A stretch of 64,000 nt of DNA from an uncultured Lachnospiraceae bacterium (GTDB taxonomy: Bacteria; Bacillota; Clostridia; Lachnospirales; Lachnospiraceae), in assembly GCA_947173495.1 (NCBI GenBank), contig CAMWFQ010000002.1, forward strand, positions 124,001 through 188,000. Direction: 5' to 3'. Shown here one piece after another: positions 12,981 to 22,621 of this stretch. The notes beneath the pieces are model-generated. The model was not told the origin of the DNA and did no database searches. It saw only the letters and a list, made by a program, of their open reading frames with translations. The translations under genes and the position numbers were made by a program. Numbering within the stretch: the first letter of the stretch is position 1; each line of letters opens with the position of its first letter.

Positions 12981-13130
12981 GAAAATATTACATTTTATCA
13001 GAAAACGTCACAATGAAAAGGGGTGTGATCCTCCCCTGCCTTTTCAGATTTTTAAATAGGGCTTGAAAATGATTTTTAATAGATTTACCCTTTATCTAAG
13101 GATATCCTTAGAACACTTAACGGAGAAAGG

Positions 13131-13218
13131 TTGAAAATTAAAATTTTCAACCACGAGATTTGTGTCTGCGCGCTGCTTGCCACAAACTCGTTATGCACAG
13201 AAAGCAGCGCAGAAATGG
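13131..13218 (+). repeat. 88-bp structured dispersed element, copy 1
   Basis: TTGAAAATTAAAATTTTCAACCACGAGATTTGTGTCTGCGCGCTGCTTGCCACAAACTCGTTATGCACAGAAAGCAGCGCAGAAATGG. 82 of 88 positions match the minus-strand sequence at 19050-19137. Confidence 0.9.
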
Positions 13219-13231
13219 TGTAAAAAATGAC

Positions 13232-14211
13232 ATGAATCAAGAAAAAATAGAAGCGTTTGAAAAGGTCGTAATGCGTGATTATGGAAATATTGCAGGTATC
13301 GTTGTATTAAAAGATAATGAGACATTATACGAAAATTACTTTAATGAATGTACCGTTAACAGCCGGATTCATATCTATTCCGTAACGAAAAGTATTATTT
13401 CCATACTGACAGGAATTGCCATGGACAAAGGTTACATCAAAAGTCTCGACCAGAAAGTATTGGATTTTTCCCCGAATATGAAATCAGGAAAAGAGAGAAA
13501 ACCATACAAAATATTACACTGAGAAATTTATTAACAATGACTGCACCCTATCAATATAAATTTAATCCCTGTATAAAATATTTTACAAGCGATAACTGGG
13601 TAAAATTCTCACTCGATTTATTGGGTGGCAGAGGACGGGTTGGCACATTCAGATATACGCCCCTGATTGGTCCGGATATTATGTCCGGTATTCTTGTCAG
13701 GGCAACGGGACAATCTGTCATAAATTTTGCACGGGAAAATTTGTTTGATCCATTGGGAATTGTCGTTGAAAAGAATATTATTTTTCATAGTAAAGAGGAA
13801 CAGCTTGCCTTTAGTCAGGCTACGAATATCAGCGGCTGGGTGGCAGATTCTATGGGTGTAAATGCGGCAGGCTGGGGACTTACGCTCTCCCCCGCCGATA
13901 TGGCGAAAACAGGTCAATTATATTTAAATCATGGAATATGGAATCATAAACAAATTGTCTCGGCAAAATGGGTCCATGAAAGTACGGAGGAGCATAGTCG
14001 ATGGAAAGCTCAAAATCTGCCGTACGGATATTTATGGTGGATTTATAAAGATGGCTTTGCAGCCATGGGAGATGGCGGAAATATTATTTATGTCAACACG
14101 AAAAAAAATATGGTAATTTCAATCGCCTCTCTGTTTAAGCCAAAAGTCAGGGATCGGATTGAACTTATTCAGACGTATATCGAACCGCTATTTGATCAAT
14201 GCGGATCATGA
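13232..14211 (+). pseudogene. Serine hydrolase / class C beta-lactamase-like protein, frameshifted
   Basis: Two adjacent ORFs (13160-13522, 13537-14211) encode consecutive parts of one beta-lactamase-family domain (SVTKS in the first, remainder in the second). Removing one GA from GAGAGA at 13493-13498 restores ...MKSGKEKTIQNITLRNLLTMTAPY... The probable real start is ATG at 13232. Confidence 0.85.
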
Positions 14212-14323: not shown

Positions 14324-15616
14324 CTACTCTTCCTCCGCCAGCCTCCGCGCCTCCTCCAGACTGATCCCCCTCTCCCGGGCGATGCGCGCCAGATCTTCAT
14401 ATTCATACTTTACCCGTGAAACGCCGTAACCAGAAGAACTTTTCCGGCGTACCTCCCCCAGAGACGTATGAAGCGTCTCTATCTTCCTCTCCAGAACATA
14501 CCGCTGCATCACTGTCTCACGCACTCCCAGCGTAGTGGTATGTCTGAACAGAAGTCCCAGCATCTTCTCTCTGTCCTGTTCTGTACATATCACATGAATC
14601 ACCGTGCCGGGGCGGGATTTTTTCATTCCTGCGGCGATGGTATAAACCTCGCGGGCGCCGCTCTCAAGCAATTGCTCCATAGCAAATCCCATCTCCTCCG
14701 CCGTCATATCATCCACGTTACAGGAAAGCTCCAGCATCCGTTCTTCCTCTCCTCCGCTCTCCCCCAGCATGGCCCTGACACAGTTTGCCCTTGGGAAATC
14801 CTTCTTTCCCATTCCGTAGCCCACAGCCTGTACCTTCATCACCGGCATATCTCCGAACCGGGATCCGAAATATTTTAAAAGCGCTGCTCCGGTAGGCGTA
14901 CATAATTCTCCGGAAATACTTCCTCCGTATATGGGCACCTCCTTCAGGATATACGCTGTGGCAGGAGCCGGAACAGGAAGAATCCCATGAGCGCACTTCA
15001 CCTGGCCGCTCCCCACATGAACGGGAGAAATCACCACCTGATCCGGCGCCAGCTCTTTCATCAGCAGACACACCGCCGTGATATCTGCAATGGCATCCAT
15101 GGTCCCCACCTCATGAAAATGAATTTCCGAAACCGGCACTCCATGGGCATGACTTTCCGCCTCCGCGATCAGAGCGTAAACCCTGAGAACATCCTCCCTC
15201 ACCTTCTCCGGAAGGTCCAGATGGGAAATGAGATGCTCGATCTCATGCATTCCCCTGTGAATATGCCCATGACTGTGGGTATGTTCTTCGTGATGATCCT
15301 CATGATCTTCATGGCTGTGACCATGGCCTTCGTGATAATGTTCATGGTCTTCATGGCCGTGACCATGGCCTTCGTGGTGATGGCCTTCGTGGTGATGCTC
15401 CTCTCCCTCCTCTGTGCCGCCCACAAGGACAACTGCATGGGTTCCGGTAATTCCGCACTTCACCGCTTTCTCTTTTTTTACCTCTACATCCAGCACAGAC
15501 AGAATCTTATTCAGTTTGTTAAAAAACAGGTCGGAATCAGGCAGAAGCTCCGTCAGAGCCGCAGTCAGCATATCCCCGGCCGCTCCCATTCCGCAGTCTA
15601 AATATAATGTTTTCAT
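14324..15616 (-). CDS. larC: Nickel-pincer cofactor biosynthesis protein LarC (single full-length frame, His-rich insert)
   Basis: 430 aa; MKTLYLDCGMGAAGDM start, VSEIHFHEVGTMDAIADI, CTPTGAALLK, LELSCNVDDMTAEEMG motifs of the LarC (DUF111) family. His-rich stretch near residues 75-130. Confidence 0.95.
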   Translation of the reverse strand: MKTLYLDCGMGAAGDMLTAALTELLPDSDLFFNKLNKILSVLDVEVKKEKAVKCGITGTHAVVLVGGTEEGEEHHHEGHHHEGHGHGHEDHEHYHEGHGHSHEDHEDHHEEHTHSHGHIHRGMHEIEHLISHLDLPEKVREDVLRVYALIAEAESHAHGVPVSEIHFHEVGTMDAIADITAVCLLMKELAPDQVVISPVHVGSGQVKCAHGILPVPAPATAYILKEVPIYGGSISGELCTPTGAALLKYFGSRFGDMPVMKVQAVGYGMGKKDFPRANCVRAMLGESGGEEERMLELSCNVDDMTAEEMGFAMEQLLESGAREVYTIAAGMKKSRPGTVIHVICTEQDREKMLGLLFRHTTTLGVRETVMQRYVLERKIETLHTSLGEVRRKSSSGYGVSRVKYEYEDLARIARERGISLEEARRLAEEE

Positions 15617-15644
15617 TGATATGGTCTCCTATTTCCTGTTACGT

Positions 15645-16391
15645 CTATTTCATGTGGTTGATCATGCTTGCCAGATATCCGGCCCCGAATCCATTGTCGA
15701 TGTTTACCACCGACACCCCGCTGGCGCAGGAATTCAACATGGATAAAAGGGCGGAAAGGCCGTGGAAGGACGCTCCGTAGCCCACGCTGGTGGGTACGGC
15801 GATCACAGGGCAGTCCGCCAGCCCCCCGATCACACTGGCCAGCGCTCCCTCCATGCCCGCAATGGCAATGATCACGCTTGCTCCCATGATCTCATCCAGA
15901 TGCGCCAGTGTCCTGTGCAGTCCTGCCACCCCCACATCATACAGGCGCGCCACCCGGTTGCCCAGAACCTGAGCGGTCAGGGCCGCCTCCTCCGCAACAG
16001 GGATGTCGCTTGTCCCCCCGGTGGCTACCACGATGGTTCCGATTCCATCCGGCTCCGGAAGTTTTCCTGCAATTCCCACTTTCGCCTGGGGATAGTAGGT
16101 CAACTCACAGCTTTTTCCAACCGCTTCCGCCGCTTCCTTATCTATTCGGGTGATCAGTACCGGATCCTGCCCGTTTTTTTTCATCACATCCAATATCCCG
16201 CTGATCTGCTCCGGCGTCTTTCCCGCTCCATAGATTACCTCCGCCGCTCCCTGGCGCACCCTGCGGTGAAGATCCACCTTCGCGTAGCCAATATCCTCAA
16301 AGGGCTCCGCCTTAATCCTGATCAGAGCCTCCTCCACCGATATCTCCCCCGCCTGCACTGCCTCCAGCAGCTTTTTCACTCCACTGTTCAT
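15645..16391 (-). CDS. larB: Nickel-pincer cofactor biosynthesis protein LarB (AIR carboxylase-like)
   Basis: 248 aa; PurE-like core VVATGGTSDIPVAEEAALTAQVLG and VIAVPTSVGYGASFHGLSALLSMLNSCASGVSVVNIDNGFGAGYLA. Start overlaps the larE stop (ATGA). Confidence 0.95.
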   Translation of the reverse strand: MNSGVKKLLEAVQAGEISVEEALIRIKAEPFEDIGYAKVDLHRRVRQGAAEVIYGAGKTPEQISGILDVMKKNGQDPVLITRIDKEAAEAVGKSCELTYYPQAKVGIAGKLPEPDGIGTIVVATGGTSDIPVAEEAALTAQVLGNRVARLYDVGVAGLHRTLAHLDEIMGASVIIAIAGMEGALASVIGGLADCPVIAVPTSVGYGASFHGLSALLSMLNSCASGVSVVNIDNGFGAGYLASMINHMK

Positions 16392-17134
16392 CCGCGCACC
16401 TCCAAATCCAAAAGAACCTCTTCATAATATTTTTTCAGCTCCTGCAAAATTTTCCGGCGCATTTTAAGTACCGGCAGGAGCTCCTCCTCCGGTACCTGTA
16501 TCTTTGCCCTGCCTCCATCCATACGTACCCGGAAGTTTCTGAACCCCAGAGAGAATAAAAAGTTTTCCGCCTGTTCCGTTTTCTGCAGCTTTTCCTCTGT
16601 AATCCTCTCCCCTGCAGGAATCCGCGTGGCAAGACAGGCATAAGCAGGCTTTTTCCAGGTAAAAAGTCCCTCCTTTTCGGACAGACTCCGTATCTCTTCC
16701 TTCGTCAGACCGCATTCTCTTAAAGGCGAGCGCACGGACAATTCGGCCAGCGCGCGCATACCGGGTCTGTCCGAAGCCTCATCCGAGGCATTGGTTCCAT
16801 CCAGCAAAAGAGAATACCCATCCTCCGCTGCGGCTTCTGCAATGGCCGTAAATATCTTTTTTTTACACCAGTAGCATCTGTCCCCGGGATTTGACGCGAT
16901 CTCCTCCTCCCCCAGCACATCTATCTCCAGAATCCGAAGAGAGGCTCTCAGCTCTCCCGAGAGACGCCTTGCATCCTCCAGTTCAAACTCCGGCTGAAAG
17001 GCAGATCTGACATAGTAGGCGCGGACCTGCGCGCCGCACCGGATCGCGGCGCAGAGCAGGTAGGACGAATCAACTCCTCCCGAAAAGGCAATGGCCGCCC
17101 GGGGATTCCGAATAAAAAAATCCTGTAAGTTCAT
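16388..17134 (-). CDS. larE: ATP-dependent sacrificial sulfur transferase LarE
   Basis: 248 aa; PP-loop AIAFSGGVDSSYLL, DRCYWCKKKIF, LLDGTNASDEASDRPGMRALAEL, RSPLRECGLTKEEIR, KPAYACLATRIP. Confidence 0.95.
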   Translation of the reverse strand: MNLQDFFIRNPRAAIAFSGGVDSSYLLCAAIRCGAQVRAYYVRSAFQPEFELEDARRLSGELRASLRILEIDVLGEEEIASNPGDRCYWCKKKIFTAIAEAAAEDGYSLLLDGTNASDEASDRPGMRALAELSVRSPLRECGLTKEEIRSLSEKEGLFTWKKPAYACLATRIPAGERITEEKLQKTEQAENFLFSLGFRNFRVRMDGGRAKIQVPEEELLPVLKMRRKILQELKKYYEEVLLDLEVRG

Positions 17135-17161
17135 TGTTACCTCCTCTACTTTTTCTCTCTT

Positions 17162-18052
17162 TTATAAATTTCTCTGCCGGGGATCCCCGTTTTTCTGCAG
17201 ATAACTTCCGATATTGGTGATACACAGCAGCGTCGCCACAAGAAACGCCCCGGGAATCAGAACCGTCCACCAGGATCCGTAAATCAGATTATTTCCTGCC
17301 AGAGAAAGCATGCTGCCCCATGAGATCACATCCAGCGGCAGTCCAAGCCCCATGAAGCTCAAAGTGGATTCATACAGAATCGCGCCGCGGATATTCATGA
17401 TTACCATGAACAGGATAGATGACACAAAGTTCGGCGCAAGGTGTCGGCGCAGAATGCGGAAAAATCCCGCCCCCATACACCGCGATGCGATCACATATTC
17501 GCAGCTCCTGATCTGACTCACCTGCGTGCGCACCACCCTGGCAATCCCTGTCCACCCGGTGATTCCGATTACAAAAGAAAGACTCAGAACGTTCGCCTTT
17601 CCCAGAAGCGCCTGTACAAGCACCACAAGTAAAAGGCCGGGGACACATAAAAAGATCTCCATAAACCGCGTCAGCAGCGCATCCGCCCATTTCGGCCCCA
17701 AAGCACCGGCCGTCCCGTAAAATACTGCAATGAGCGTGGAAACAACTGTTGCGCACACACCAATAAACAGTGAAATTCTCCCGCCGTACCAGATCATGGT
17801 AAAAAGGTCCCGTCCCATGGTGTCTGTTCCGAACCAGTGGCGGATGTCCGGTGCCTGACCCGCCTGATACAGATCCATTCTCCCCGGATCCCCTCTGGTG
17901 AACAGCCCGCAGCACACACATCCCAGGATGATCCCCCCGAGTACGATAACAGAAACTATGGGCCGTTTCCCCTCTTTCCTCCGCTTTTCTTCTACCGGGA
18001 GAGAAACCGGCCGGATTCCCACCTGAACAAACCCGTTATCCACCCTTCTCAC
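17162..18052 (-). CDS. ABC transporter permease, DppC/OppC/NikC family
   Basis: 296 aa; HWFGTDTMGRDLFTMIWYGGRISLFIGV and the EAA-like region; start overlaps the upstream permease stop. Confidence 0.93.
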   Translation of the reverse strand: MRRVDNGFVQVGIRPVSLPVEEKRRKEGKRPIVSVIVLGGIILGCVCCGLFTRGDPGRMDLYQAGQAPDIRHWFGTDTMGRDLFTMIWYGGRISLFIGVCATVVSTLIAVFYGTAGALGPKWADALLTRFMEIFLCVPGLLLVVLVQALLGKANVLSLSFVIGITGWTGIARVVRTQVSQIRSCEYVIASRCMGAGFFRILRRHLAPNFVSSILFMVIMNIRGAILYESTLSFMGLGLPLDVISWGSMLSLAGNNLIYGSWWTVLIPGAFLVATLLCITNIGSYLQKNGDPRQRNL

Positions 18053-19053
18053 CTCCCGTCCAGGACATTTTCCGTATTTTTCATCCCTGGATCAATCCAT
18101 GCATTGATCGTCCGGGATATGGCGCTGCAGGTCATCACCAGAATCCCCGAAAACATACTCAGGAGCATCAGCATATTATAGTCCTGATATTGGACACTTT
18201 CATATGCCAGTGTTCCGATACCCGGATAGGAAAATACCATTTCAACGATATAGGTTCCGCCCAGGATATGAGGGACCGAAATCGCCATAAGCCCCAGATA
18301 AACCGGGAGCACATTCCGCAGGCAGTGTCTGAAAAAAACAGTTCTTTTACTCAGTCCCTTGGATCTGGCCAGCAGCACATACTCCGCTCTGGCCTCCTCC
18401 AGAATCCTGTTTCGGATCATATAGGCATAATACCACAAATGATTCGTCACTGCCACTGCCAGCGGCAGGATCAGATGTTGTATTCTGTCCGAAATATCGT
18501 CCTCTCTCCCCGGGGAACAGGCACCGCTTCCGGGGAGCCATCGCAGACTCACTGCAAAAATAAAAACCAGGACCAGGGACAGCCAGAATTCCGGAATGCA
18601 GCTGAGCACTGTCCCCGCTCTGCAGACCAGACGGTCCTGCCATTTATCTTCATGCCAGGCGCACCAGATTCCCAGTCCGGGCGCAAGGATCAGGATCAGC
18701 GCAAGGCTGATTCCTCCCAGCATAAGCGTATTGCCCAGCCGGGCTCCGATTACCTCCGACACATTCCTTTTATATTTATAGGAAATACCGAAATCCCCCT
18801 GCAGGGCGTGTTCCAGCCATCGGATATATTGGGTAAGCACAGGCTCCTTCAGCCCCAGCCTTTCCTCCGCCCTCTCTCTTTCCTCCGGACTCATTTTTTC
18901 CACGCGGTCGCCGTAATAGGATCGAAGCGGATCGCCGGGCGCCAGGCGGGCCACAAAAAATACTGCCACCGAAAGAAACAGCATGCTTACAAGAAAGTTG
19001 AAAATCTTTCGTCCGTAATACAGCCAGATTCTGCCTCTCACTGTTTTCCCCAT
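18049..19053 (-). CDS. ABC transporter permease, DppB/OppB/NikB family
   Basis: APGDPLRSYYGDRVEKMSPEERERAEERLGLKEPVLTQYIRWL..., YIVEMVFSYPGIGTLAYESVQYQDY. The probable start is ATG at 19053 (MGKTVRGRIW), at the end of repeat copy 2; the annotated ORF extends through the repeat. Confidence 0.92.
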   Translation of the reverse strand: MGKTVRGRIWLYYGRKIFNFLVSMLFLSVAVFFVARLAPGDPLRSYYGDRVEKMSPEERERAEERLGLKEPVLTQYIRWLEHALQGDFGISYKYKRNVSEVIGARLGNTLMLGGISLALILILAPGLGIWCAWHEDKWQDRLVCRAGTVLSCIPEFWLSLVLVFIFAVSLRWLPGSGACSPGREDDISDRIQHLILPLAVAVTNHLWYYAYMIRNRILEEARAEYVLLARSKGLSKRTVFFRHCLRNVLPVYLGLMAISVPHILGGTYIVEMVFSYPGIGTLAYESVQYQDYNMLMLLSMFSGILVMTCSAISRTINAWIDPGMKNTENVLDGR

Positions 19054-19137
19054 TTCTGCGCTGCTTTTTGCGCATATCGAGTTTGTGGCAAGCAACGCGC
19101 AGACACAAATCTCGCGATTGAAAATTTTAATTTTCAA
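19050..19137 (-). repeat. 88-bp structured dispersed element, copy 2
   Basis: Reverse complement matches 13131-13218 with 6 mismatches. It lies between the upstream ATPase gene and the NikB-like gene, supplying the ATPase stop codon and ending on the permease ATG. Confidence 0.9.
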
Positions 19138-20032
19138 TCTTTTCCTCCCCTTTCCTCACCAGATGATCCGGTGATATTTCCACCATTTCTCCTGGCCATT
19201 CAAACAGAGCCGGATCATATTCCTGCCATACTCTGTGCCGCTCCCTGCGTGGATCCGGGCAGGGAATCGCACTCAGCAGCGCCTTCGTATAGGGATGGAG
19301 CGGATTTTCGAACAGCTCTCCGGAAGGCGCCGTCTCCACCAGCCGTCCCCGGTACATCACGCCCACTCTGTCGCACAGATATTTTACCACCGAAAGATCA
19401 TGTGCAATAAACAGAATGGAAAACCCATGCTCTGACTGAAGATGCTTAAACAAATTGAGGATCTGGGCCTGAATTGATACATCCAGAGATGCCACCGGCT
19501 CGTCTGCAATCAAAAGAGCCGGTTCCATAGTGAGCGCACGGGCAATGGCGACTCTCTGCCGCATCCCGCCTGAAAGCTGGGAAGGGTACCGGTCCAGGTA
19601 AGAGGCTTCCATCCCCACATAGTGAAGCTGGAATTCCGCCTCTCTGCGAAGAGAACCCCTGGGCGGCCTGATATGATGAATTTCCATCGGTTCTGCAATA
19701 ATTTCCGCAACCTTCATCCTTCCGTTCAGACTGGAGGCGGAATCCTGAAAGATCATCTGACGCGAGGTCTGAAGCATTTTCTTATTCCTGCGGTATGCTT
19801 TCGGGTCACAGATATCGATTCCCCGATACAGAATCTTTCCGGAAAAAGGGCGGTAAATATTCATCAGGCAGTACGCCGCCGTAGATTTGCCGCAGCCTGA
19901 TTCGCCTACCAGTCCGAAAATTTCTCCCCTGCGGATCTGAAAGGACAGATCGTCCACCGCCCTGATCTTTATCTTTGAATTGATTTTAAAATAATGGGTC
20001 AGATGCTGCACATCCAGAAGAACCTCACACAC
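19127..20032 (-). CDS. ABC transporter ATP-binding protein, OppF/DppF/NikE family
   Basis: 301 aa; Walker A GLVGESGCGKST, signature LSGGMRQR, Walker B LLIADEPVASLD, C-terminal oligopeptide/nickel-type extension (NPLHPYTKALLSAIP). Confidence 0.95.
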   Translation of the reverse strand: MCEVLLDVQHLTHYFKINSKIKIRAVDDLSFQIRRGEIFGLVGESGCGKSTAAYCLMNIYRPFSGKILYRGIDICDPKAYRRNKKMLQTSRQMIFQDSASSLNGRMKVAEIIAEPMEIHHIRPPRGSLRREAEFQLHYVGMEASYLDRYPSQLSGGMRQRVAIARALTMEPALLIADEPVASLDVSIQAQILNLFKHLQSEHGFSILFIAHDLSVVKYLCDRVGVMYRGRLVETAPSGELFENPLHPYTKALLSAIPCPDPRRERHRVWQEYDPALFEWPGEMVEISPDHLVRKGEEKIEN

Positions 20033-21080
20033 TGTTTTCTCCTCCCCCTTCAGGTCTGTTTCCGGATAACATATCCGGCCAGGCTAAGGATATATTCTCC
20101 ATCGAAGGAGCGCGGGGATCCAGAAGCCAGGTAGCTGCATAATGGGTATCGCTGATCCGGAACATCGGCGGCTCCTTCTCATAGTCAATGGCCAGCGCAT
20201 ACTCATTTCGACAGGCAAAGGCATCTCCCCGGGGCAGACGGGTCAGAGAAGGCGGCATGCCGGGAATGGTATACAGCTCCTCCCCTTTTTCTGCAAAAAA
20301 GGGGAGCGAGCGCAACAGTCCCCGGGTATAGGGGTGACGCGGATCATAAAAGATATCCTCGCTGGTGCCTGTCTCTATGATTTTACCGGCGTACATCACT
20401 GCGATCCGGTCCGCCACCCTGGCCACCACGCTCAGATCATGGGATACCAGCAGCGTTGCTGTTTTCAGCTTCTTCTGAATCATTAACAGCAGATCCAGGA
20501 TCTGTGCCTGAACCGTTACATCCAGCGCCGTGGTAGGTTCGTCCGCCAGCAGAATACCGGGGTCGCAGGCCAGTGCAATCGCCATAACACTGCGCTGACG
20601 CATTCCTCCCGAAAAATGACAGGGATACATTTTACAGCGCTTTTCCGCCTCCGGGATCCCAGTCAGGTCCATAAGTTCCAGCACCCGCTTCAACACTTCC
20701 TCCCGCTTCATCTTCGGATAGCGGACACGCACAGCCTCTCCGATCTGTTCTCCCACAGATACTGCCGGATTTAAGACGGTCATGGGATTCTGAAAAACCA
20801 TGGAAAAAAGCCTGCCGCGCAGCCGCTCCATCTCTTTCTCCCGATAGTCCGTGATATCCTTACCTGCTGCCAGGATCCTTCCGTTTTTGATCCGGGCATT
20901 TTCAGGCAACAGCTTCATAATGGTTTTGCACAGAACACTTTTTCCACATCCCGATTCTCCTACGAGCGCCAGCACCTCGCCCGGATATAAAGAAAGATTC
21001 ACATTTCTCAGTGCCTTAAGCTCCCCCTGACTGGTATCAAAACTGACGGAAAGATCTCTGATCTCTAAAAGCGATTCCAT
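20025..21080 (-). CDS. ABC transporter ATP-binding protein, OppD/DppD/NikD family
   Basis: Walker A ALVGESGCGKS, signature FSGGMRQR, LLADEPTTALD, DPRHPYTRGLLRSLP. TAATG overlap with the upstream SBP stop sets the start at 21080. Confidence 0.95.
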   Translation of the reverse strand: MESLLEIRDLSVSFDTSQGELKALRNVNLSLYPGEVLALVGESGCGKSVLCKTIMKLLPENARIKNGRILAAGKDITDYREKEMERLRGRLFSMVFQNPMTVLNPAVSVGEQIGEAVRVRYPKMKREEVLKRVLELMDLTGIPEAEKRCKMYPCHFSGGMRQRSVMAIALACDPGILLADEPTTALDVTVQAQILDLLLMIQKKLKTATLLVSHDLSVVARVADRIAVMYAGKIIETGTSEDIFYDPRHPYTRGLLRSLPFFAEKGEELYTIPGMPPSLTRLPRGDAFACRNEYALAIDYEKEPPMFRISDTHYAATWLLDPRAPSMENISLAWPDMLSGNRPEGGGENSV

Positions 21081-22621
21081 TATTCCTCCATGCTCCACTC
21101 CGTAATATTCCAGAAAATCCCCACTCCATGATGTCCCATGACCTTATCGGCATCAATCCCTTTCAGCCGGGCATCCGCCACATAATCTGCATCCACATAG
21201 CAGATAAAGGCAAATGCCGGATCCTGCGCCAGCGCTTTCTGAAACTGGTCATAAGCCTTCCCACGCTCCTCCGGATCATCTGTCTGTCTTGCCAGGGTCA
21301 GATACCGGTCAACCTCCTGATTAGAATAAGCCGAGTAATTGGCGCCCTTATCCGTCCCAAATACTTTATAGGTATGATCATCCGCATCAAAGGGACTTCC
21401 CCAGCCAATCAGGTATGCTTCCTGCCTTTCCCAGTCCACCCGGACCGGAATCTCCACACTGCAGTTTATCCCGATCTCCTGAAGCTGCTGTGCGGCGGCC
21501 TGGGCCATATCAAGACGGACCTGATCGCCTTCTCCCACACTGATCACAAAGCCGACCTCTTCTCCATTCCGCTCATAAAATCCTTTTTCCCCCATAATGC
21601 AGCCGGCTTCCTCCAGTATCTGTCTGGCCTTTTCCGGATTATAGGCGTATTGCTCCACTTCTTCACAATTATAAATATTGCGCTGCAGGGGACCATAAGC
21701 CGTAATCCCATGTCCCAGCAGTACGGTATCGAGTATGGCCTGACGATCCAGGCCATAGCAGATAGCCGGAATCAAATCCCGGTTGGCTTTCCAGTACTCA
21801 TTCCTGAAGTTAAACAGGATTCCTCTGTAATCGGATGTCTTCATACGATAGACTCTGTAGTCCGGATTATCTTCAAATACCATGGAATCTCTTGGCGTCA
21901 GCAGCGCCAGATCCAGCTCCCCGGCCTGCAGCTGCATGGCTTTCGCATTATCGTCCATCACAATCTTAAAGACAATCGTTTCAATCTCCGCCGCTCCCTT
22001 AAAATACGCTTCATTCCTCACCAGCGTGATCGCCTGCCCCTCATCCCAGCTCTTGAGTCTGTAGGGGCCGGTTCCCACGGGATTACGGAAAAAATCCGAC
22101 TCCTGCATATCTTCCCCCTGCAGGCAGTGCTCTGGCAAAACCGGTATCGCCATATAATCAAGAAACGCCGCATTGGGCGCCGCCAGCCGGAACGATATGG
22201 TATGCTCATCCAGTACGCTGATCTCCTGCACATCCTCATAATTGGCCGCATTTTCAGAACCATTCTCCGGATCCTTAATGGCTTCTATGGTGAACATCAC
22301 ATCCTTCGCCGTAAAGGGCACGCCATCATGCCACTTTACATCCTCCTCCAGATAAAAGGTATAAGTACAGGATGCCTCGTCAAAAGTCCACTTGCTCGCC
22401 AGACCCGGAATCACCTGATTCTTCCCATCATGAGCCGTCAGCCCGTCAAACAGAAGCAGATTGATTTCCCCATGCTCGTCCATCGCCGGATTCATACGCG
22501 TATAGTCGCCGCTGCCATACACCAGCACGGAGCCCTTCTCCTCCTCCCTGCCGCAGGCGCAAAGGCCTGACAGCATCGTAATCAGCATCAATAATACTGC
22601 TGTTTTTCCCGTCTTTCTCAT
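21080..22621 (-). CDS. ABC transporter substrate-binding lipoprotein, family 5 (peptide/nickel type)
   Basis: 513 aa; lipobox-type signal (LITMLSGLCAC), SBP_bac_5 features (LASKWTFDEASCTYTFYLEEDVKWHDGVPFTAKDVMFTIEAI, NPVGTGPYRLKSW), C-terminal GHHGVGIFWNI. Confidence 0.95.
   Translation of the reverse strand: MRKTGKTAVLLMLITMLSGLCACGREEEKGSVLVYGSGDYTRMNPAMDEHGEINLLLFDGLTAHDGKNQVIPGLASKWTFDEASCTYTFYLEEDVKWHDGVPFTAKDVMFTIEAIKDPENGSENAANYEDVQEISVLDEHTISFRLAAPNAAFLDYMAIPVLPEHCLQGEDMQESDFFRNPVGTGPYRLKSWDEGQAITLVRNEAYFKGAAEIETIVFKIVMDDNAKAMQLQAGELDLALLTPRDSMVFEDNPDYRVYRMKTSDYRGILFNFRNEYWKANRDLIPAICYGLDRQAILDTVLLGHGITAYGPLQRNIYNCEEVEQYAYNPEKARQILEEAGCIMGEKGFYERNGEEVGFVISVGEGDQVRLDMAQAAAQQLQEIGINCSVEIPVRVDWERQEAYLIGWGSPFDADDHTYKVFGTDKGANYSAYSNQEVDRYLTLARQTDDPEERGKAYDQFQKALAQDPAFAFICYVDADYVADARLKGIDADKVMGHHGVGIFWNITEWSMEE

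Follow-up and report, generated by a model that had tools for sequence, protein, structure and literature searches.

A probably mobile repeat with two interleaved, covarying stems lies between the Shine-Dalgarno sequence and the start codon of genes in Lachnospiraceae

Introduction

The 64,000-nucleotide stretch of DNA analyzed here (the window), part of the 4.6-Mb, 97% complete genome of a Lachnospiraceae-type bacterium (G000), contains an 88-bp sequence in two copies, one on each strand and each directly upstream of a gene. Its arms can pair in two interleaved stems, which raises the question of what such an element is and how it came to lie so close to the genes that it precedes. The original prediction, made from the window, described a repeated element whose two stems interleave. 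That description holds, but it overlooked where the element sits, namely between a Shine-Dalgarno (SD) sequence and a start codon, as well as the SD that the element itself carries, a variable hairpin between the two 3' arms and frequent truncation at the 5' end.

Two copies of the element in the window

Copy 1 occupies positions 13131-13218 of the forward strand and copy 2 positions 19050-19137 of the reverse strand. They are identical at 82 of 88 positions in an ungapped alignment, whereas the best shuffled 88-mer in the window reached 44/88, and the repeat is therefore as real as first proposed. Copy 1 (all features on the forward strand) begins with a hairpin, GGTTGAAAATT-AA-AATTTTCAACC (13129-13152), a separable module whose sequence varies among copies while its pairing is kept. 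It is followed by the 5' arm of stem A, CGAGaTTTGTG (13154-13164), the 5' arm of stem B, TCTGCGCgcTGCTT (13165-13178), the 3' arm of stem A, CACAAACTCG (13181-13190), a loop that is short in this copy (13191-13201) and in others holds one or more extra hairpins and the A-rich TGCGCAAAA, and the 3' arm of stem B, AAGCAGCGCAGA (13202-13213). The palindrome and the arms lie exactly where they had been predicted, and the hairpin is slightly longer than had been supposed. A further claim, that a C-to-T difference between the copies (13173) preserves a G-U wobble in stem B, is true only in an alternative register, GCTGCTT/AAGCAGC (13172-13178 / 13202-13208); in the B pairing as first drawn, this base falls in a two-base 'gc' bulge.

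The left flank of copy 1 holds a native SD-like sequence, CGGAGAAAGG (13121-13130), which the element cuts off from the gene; this assignment draws on the sequence, on the enrichment of SD sequences across the family and on the empty sites of other copies. At the other end, ATGGTG (13215-13220) marks where the element carries an SD of its own (RRG), which is weak here, and the start codon comes next. The downstream gene belongs to the beta-lactamase family (serine hydrolase); the open reading frame (ORF) at 13232-13522 covers its N-terminal part, and the frame is broken past 13522, so that the gene is split into two frames (13232-13522 and 13537-14211). The frame opened by the ATG at 13227 runs into a stop after two codons. 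A Fur-box-like palindrome, TTGAAAATGATTTTTAA (13062-13080), also lies some 50 bp before copy 1; its likeness to the hairpin of the element may be due to chance.

Copy 2 (all features on the reverse strand) has a native SD, GGGGAGG, upstream (19144-19150) and carries an SD, GGGG, at its 3' end (19048-19051), followed by the GTG start codon (19041-19039) of an ABC transporter permease gene from an oligopeptide/nickel-type operon (18049-19041). The surrounding region (14324-22621, reverse strand) contains larC-, larB- and larE-like genes (nickel-pincer cofactor) and then the oligopeptide/nickel-type ABC transporter, with copy 2 placed between the ATPase gene and the permease gene. The ATPase gene (19127-20032, reverse strand) terminates inside the element, with its stop codon in TTGAAAATTAA, and its C-terminus was thus probably altered by the insertion.

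Copy number and distribution

The search for further copies that the original prediction had called for was productive. BLAST with the window copy returned 47 matches in the same genome, and a covariance model built on 31 copies found 112 at E<=0.01, so that we put the number at approximately 110. An 11-mer from the 3' end of the element, CAGCGCAGAAA, occurs 95 times in the 4.6 Mb and a 12-mer from its 5' end, TTTGTGTCTGCG, 67 times, while the reversed patterns occur 0 times each. Since two contigs (G000:C27:1-141 and G000:C35:9-20) start within copies of the element, the true number may be higher.

Copies within one genome are near-identical. Across genomes, for which species representatives were used, the covariance model had matches in 15 of the 31 genomes searched, nearly all of them from the same genus. 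Many copies are found in G000, G001, G007, G012, G013 and G205, and none in G002, G004, G006, G010 and G011, which belong to the same genus. A scan of GTDB species genomes yielded at least 112 stretches, nearly all from records that name Lachnospiraceae or a genus commonly assigned to this family, with Parablautia, Acetatifactor, Roseburia and Lachnospira among the matches listed. In an even sample of the order (196 genomes), eight had matches at E<=1e-4, mostly within the same family, and at least two of the weakest (L341 and L343) look like chance matches. An origin in phages was rejected, because just one contig in IMG/VR carries a copy (L266, IMGVR_UViG_3300006138_000030).

The element sits at a fixed distance from start codons

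The placement seen in the window is the rule. Among the 97 distinct 3' ends in the G000 genome, 88 are followed by an open frame that starts 4-11 nt past the RRG motif, and for 67 of them the distance is exactly 6 nt; for positions drawn at random from these loci, 86 of 1,940 had a start codon at a distance that matched. The nine 3' ends without such a frame comprise three that precede another copy, one chance match and the remainder, whose frames are short or broken. Copies are always in the sense orientation relative to the gene. On the 5' side, 47 of 101 copies have an SD-like hexamer (at least 5/6 matches to AGGAGG) no more than 16 nt from the hairpin, compared with 6/101 and 14/101 in control stretches further upstream. 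For copies that lack the hairpin, this enrichment was insignificant (6/36 versus 4/36 and 2/36).

A full copy, read from 5' to 3', thus consists of the native SD, 2-5 nt, AA, the hairpin, A, B, a loop of 2-4 nt, A', a loop, B', AAATGRGG, 6 nt and the start codon. The 3' end of the element, GAAATGRGGNNAA, contains a new SD (GAAATGRGG). We found 133 of 194 copies within 200 nt past the end of an upstream ORF on the same strand; many copies are therefore internal to operons, where promoter activity is not needed.

Modular anatomy, truncation and a second family

The element measures approximately 70-180 bp. Its hairpin exists in many variants that pair despite differing in sequence (for example, GATTGAAAATT..AATTTTCAATC, GAGTGAAAG..CTTTCACTC and GTGTGAAAA..TTTTCACAC), and some copies have no hairpin at all (L018, L028, L126 and L300). 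The A'-B' loop contains the conserved TGCGCAAAA and can hold additional hairpins. Some copies are reduced to the final 20-60 nt of the 3' end and still adjoin the start codon.

A second repeat family, ACTGTGAAAAATAAATTTTTCACAGACAAATTTGTGCTGACGCCCAAATTTGC..GGCAGCATGGAGG, has at least six copies in the same genome and shows the same layout (hairpin, A-B-A'-B', SD and ATG) in a different sequence; its loci include L031, L032, L033, L034 and L153, and L226 looks related. Copies are also found stacked: a fam-b copy lies within the SD site of a fam-a copy (L029), and a copy of the first family lies within the SD site of the second family (L226). We looked for an autonomous version in which an ORF would separate A' from B'; this candidate was rejected, as no 5' end had a distant 3' end on the same contig. 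Two of the 5' ends lie at contig ends.

Both stems covary

In 55 distinct cores whose stem B has no bulge, taken with loop L3 removed, 11 of the 20 stem pairs changed on both sides, compared with 5.0 +/- 1.1 in shuffles (0/500) and with 2-5 pairs in slid control structures. Both stems contribute, with seven and four such pairs. In the same 55 cores, 96.2% of stem cells are paired, a percentage inflated by the parsing filter (at least 8/10 pairs per stem), which does not by itself produce two-sided changes. The two findings that would have spoken against the original prediction, a lack of other copies and a lack of covariation in either stem, are both dispelled, because further copies exist in this and in related genomes and both stems covary.

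The two interleaved stems with compensatory changes that characterize an H-type pseudoknot are present. Minimum-energy folding, by a program that has no pseudoknot model, gave the A hairpin in fam-b copies and the B hairpin in the window copy, and A and B could possibly act as mutually exclusive, alternative hairpins. As stem B adjoins stem A without a linker, the structure is sterically tight if all pairs form, a point that counts against the explanation we prefer. This arrangement makes plausible an H-type form in which an invariant TCT serves as the linker loop and B is reduced to seven pairs; in that form both stems would presumably coexist.

Empty sites and insertion junctions

That the element inserts is seen at genes whose orthologs lack it. 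In G000 the trpB gene is preceded by a full-length copy, and in G007 by an independently inserted copy without the hairpin, which follows the SD cleanly; 15 relatives have no copy there and show the native SD and ATG. Two copies are stacked before proB in G000, where 19 relatives have none. At two further genes, the sequence AAAGGGGCGGAGTA-ATG in relatives (L317/L322) corresponds to AAAGGGGTGGAAGA-TTG(element) in G000 (L013), and TTGCAGGAGGTAAAAATC-ATG in a relative (L318) corresponds to TTGCAGGAGGAGATAAGA-TTG(element) (L026). At both of these, the sequence to the left of the element runs collinearly with that of the relatives, through their native SD and spacer as far as the start codon, which places the point of entry a few bases upstream of the start codon. 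Because orthologs without the element have their native SD beside the ATG, the element separates the SD from the start codon and supplies a replacement.

On the right side, bases -4 to -1 of the flank resemble the native bases of relatives (p=0.02, 15 genes) and bases -8 to -5 do not, a comparison of sequences which hints that the right junction may lie no more than approximately 4 nt from the start codon. No target-site duplication was seen in any register, and no register was enriched in 74-115 copies; two cases that looked like duplications (L012 and L114) involve older copies sharing the same 3' end. Terminal inverted repeats were not seen when the ends were compared by eye. In lacking target-site duplications, the element departs from the classical MITE of a DDE transposon.

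A probable mobile element that would restore the ribosome-binding site

The explanation that we favor, and hold to be highly probable, is that of a small non-autonomous mobile element with a structured RNA (a hairpin plus either a pseudoknot or two exclusive stems) that re-supplies a ribosome-binding site. The element would insert in sense orientation, always a short distance (a few bases) 5' of the start codon, and detach the native SD from the ATG; its 3' end would then provide a new SD at the fixed distance of 6 nt, so that the gene could still be translated, presumably at a useful level. The simplest account of the carried SD is that it offsets the damage done by the element's own insertion. 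We infer that an enzyme acting in trans recognizes the structure of the element; the mechanism of mobilization and the role of the pseudoknot are likewise conjectural.

The genome was searched for such an enzyme. No Y1 transposase (PF01797) was found in this 97% complete genome, nor did we find a transposase or integrase tied to the element, which counts against the favored explanation. The genome encodes two reverse transcriptases, neither linked to a copy. One (L307, G000:C5:212140-212760) is a large ORF with a 935-aa frame whose later part is primase-like; judged by its sequence and its neighbors, among them a Cas1-like ORF, it looks like a reverse transcriptase of CRISPR adaptation. The other (L308, G000:C12:105316-105975) has 404 aa, looks like an enzyme of the DGR/phage type and lies beside a small holin-like gene. 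A linked reverse transcriptase as the mobilizer was rejected, as these two are of other kinds. The element also does not resemble a derivative of a group II intron, for which neither intron RNA domains nor a linked intron-encoded reverse transcriptase were found.

If copying nevertheless went through RNA, the element could have spread by target-primed reverse transcription at a nicked SD region, with 5' truncation of the LINE/R2 type. Such a route would explain the excess of 3' ends over 5' ends (95 versus 67), the several copies that consist of 20-60 nt of the 3' end beside a start codon and the copy without a hairpin that sits cleanly behind the trpB SD in G007. The truncations do not require it, however, since the 3' part would also be kept where a gene now depends on the SD of the element. 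Stem cells with G-T outnumber those with A-C (41 versus 21), which would follow from selection on the sense RNA, but the parsing filter biases the number of G-T cells, and no suitable reverse transcriptase was found beside a copy. We regard this route as unlikely, and we are equally doubtful of its broader form, in which elements of one class would target the translation-initiation signal and be copied from RNA by way of the pseudoknot, losing 5' sequence in the process, and each insertion would set a fresh ribosome-binding site at a constant spacing from the start codon.

The strong covariation of both stems, the location in the 5' leader beside the SD and the conserved A-rich A'-B' loop are what a cis-regulatory RNA would show, that is, a riboswitch-like or protein-binding leader of a gene set spread mainly by descent and recombination. 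However, the 79 downstream genes contain 119 Pfam families with no enrichment, and this diversity argues against a regulon and agrees with what a mobile element predicts. Orthologs in the same genus lack the element, and the near-identical copies within one genome, many without the 5' half, and their tandem stacking also oppose this reading, to which we give little credence. It is less probable still that the native SD and a TTG or GTG of the element form a uORF for a leader peptide that couples or attenuates translation, with A and B as alternative hairpins. Most full copies do have an SD and TTG/GTG at the left end, and some short copies are fused in frame to the gene, but the three frames are used nearly equally (44/39/30), stops occur at any point and the lengths of the loop hairpins are not divisible by three; we rejected the leader peptide because the frame from the left TTG/GTG is not conserved. 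Mobile promoters are similar in concept to the element, and its placement directly 5' of genes would suit a mobile promoter or transcription terminator. This is the least credible of the alternatives: the lone promoter-like match (9/12) that overlaps a copy is within the expectation from shuffles, there is no terminator-like site at the copy, and many copies are internal to operons.

If the mobile element that re-supplies a ribosome-binding site is the correct explanation, mobile DNA would prove able to colonize translation-initiation sites in a tolerable way by carrying a replacement SD. The element occupies the most constrained stretch of a bacterial mRNA, from the SD to the start codon, and it has changed the leaders of genes, trpB and proB among them, between related species. 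With copies at approximately 100 genes in a single gut bacterium, it is an abundant RNA element, supported by covariation and absent from Rfam, and its many natural before-and-after pairs would allow one to measure how a pseudoknot upstream of the SD affects translation.

Comparison with known systems

The element does not score at or above the gathering threshold of any Rfam family, and no description of it was found in the open-licence literature. The HDV-like ribozyme, which has the same A-B-A'-B' order, was rejected for want of a Rfam match at E<=10. The TD-2 RNA of Treponema denticola (RF03162) shows a weak full-length likeness, with a hairpin and an A-like stem on the opposite strand. 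It scores 19 bits for the element and 33.5 bits for the second family, both below the gathering score of 48.7; this, the opposite strand and a 4-nt loop of the TD-2 stem that cannot hold arm B led us to reject homology.

REP/BIME sequences are short, dispersed palindromic repeats that have no ORF and are moved in trans by RAYT (Y1) transposases. The element differs from them in that its own genome has no Y1 transposase (PF01797), the enzyme expected of a REP/RAYT or IS200/IS605-derived element, and in that its copies are confined to the junctions between SD and start codon.

In Neisseria, CREN/REP2 is a dispersed element of approximately 150 bp located directly upstream of genes, and it is described as a regulatory element that is induced by contact and associated with a regulon (PMC9031163). 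Both it and the element described here lie directly 5' of genes, but the genes downstream of the latter share no function; the two are set apart here by description.

The closest published idea is that of MIRU (mycobacterial interspersed repetitive units), which a review describes as mobile and as inserting at start codons while hardly affecting the gene (PMC12548453). MIRU contain an ORF coupled to the gene by an overlap of -4 nt (PMC12548453). Like them, the element is a short dispersed repeat inserted at start codons. On the other hand, it has no conserved ORF or -4 nt coupling and instead carries an SD together with a pseudoknot whose stems covary, and MIRU are mycobacterial, whereas copies of the element, compared with them by description, were found in the genomes searched only in those of Lachnospiraceae type and a few others of the same order. 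Thus, the same idea is realized in two different ways, through a coupled ORF in MIRU and through an SD and a structured RNA in the element.
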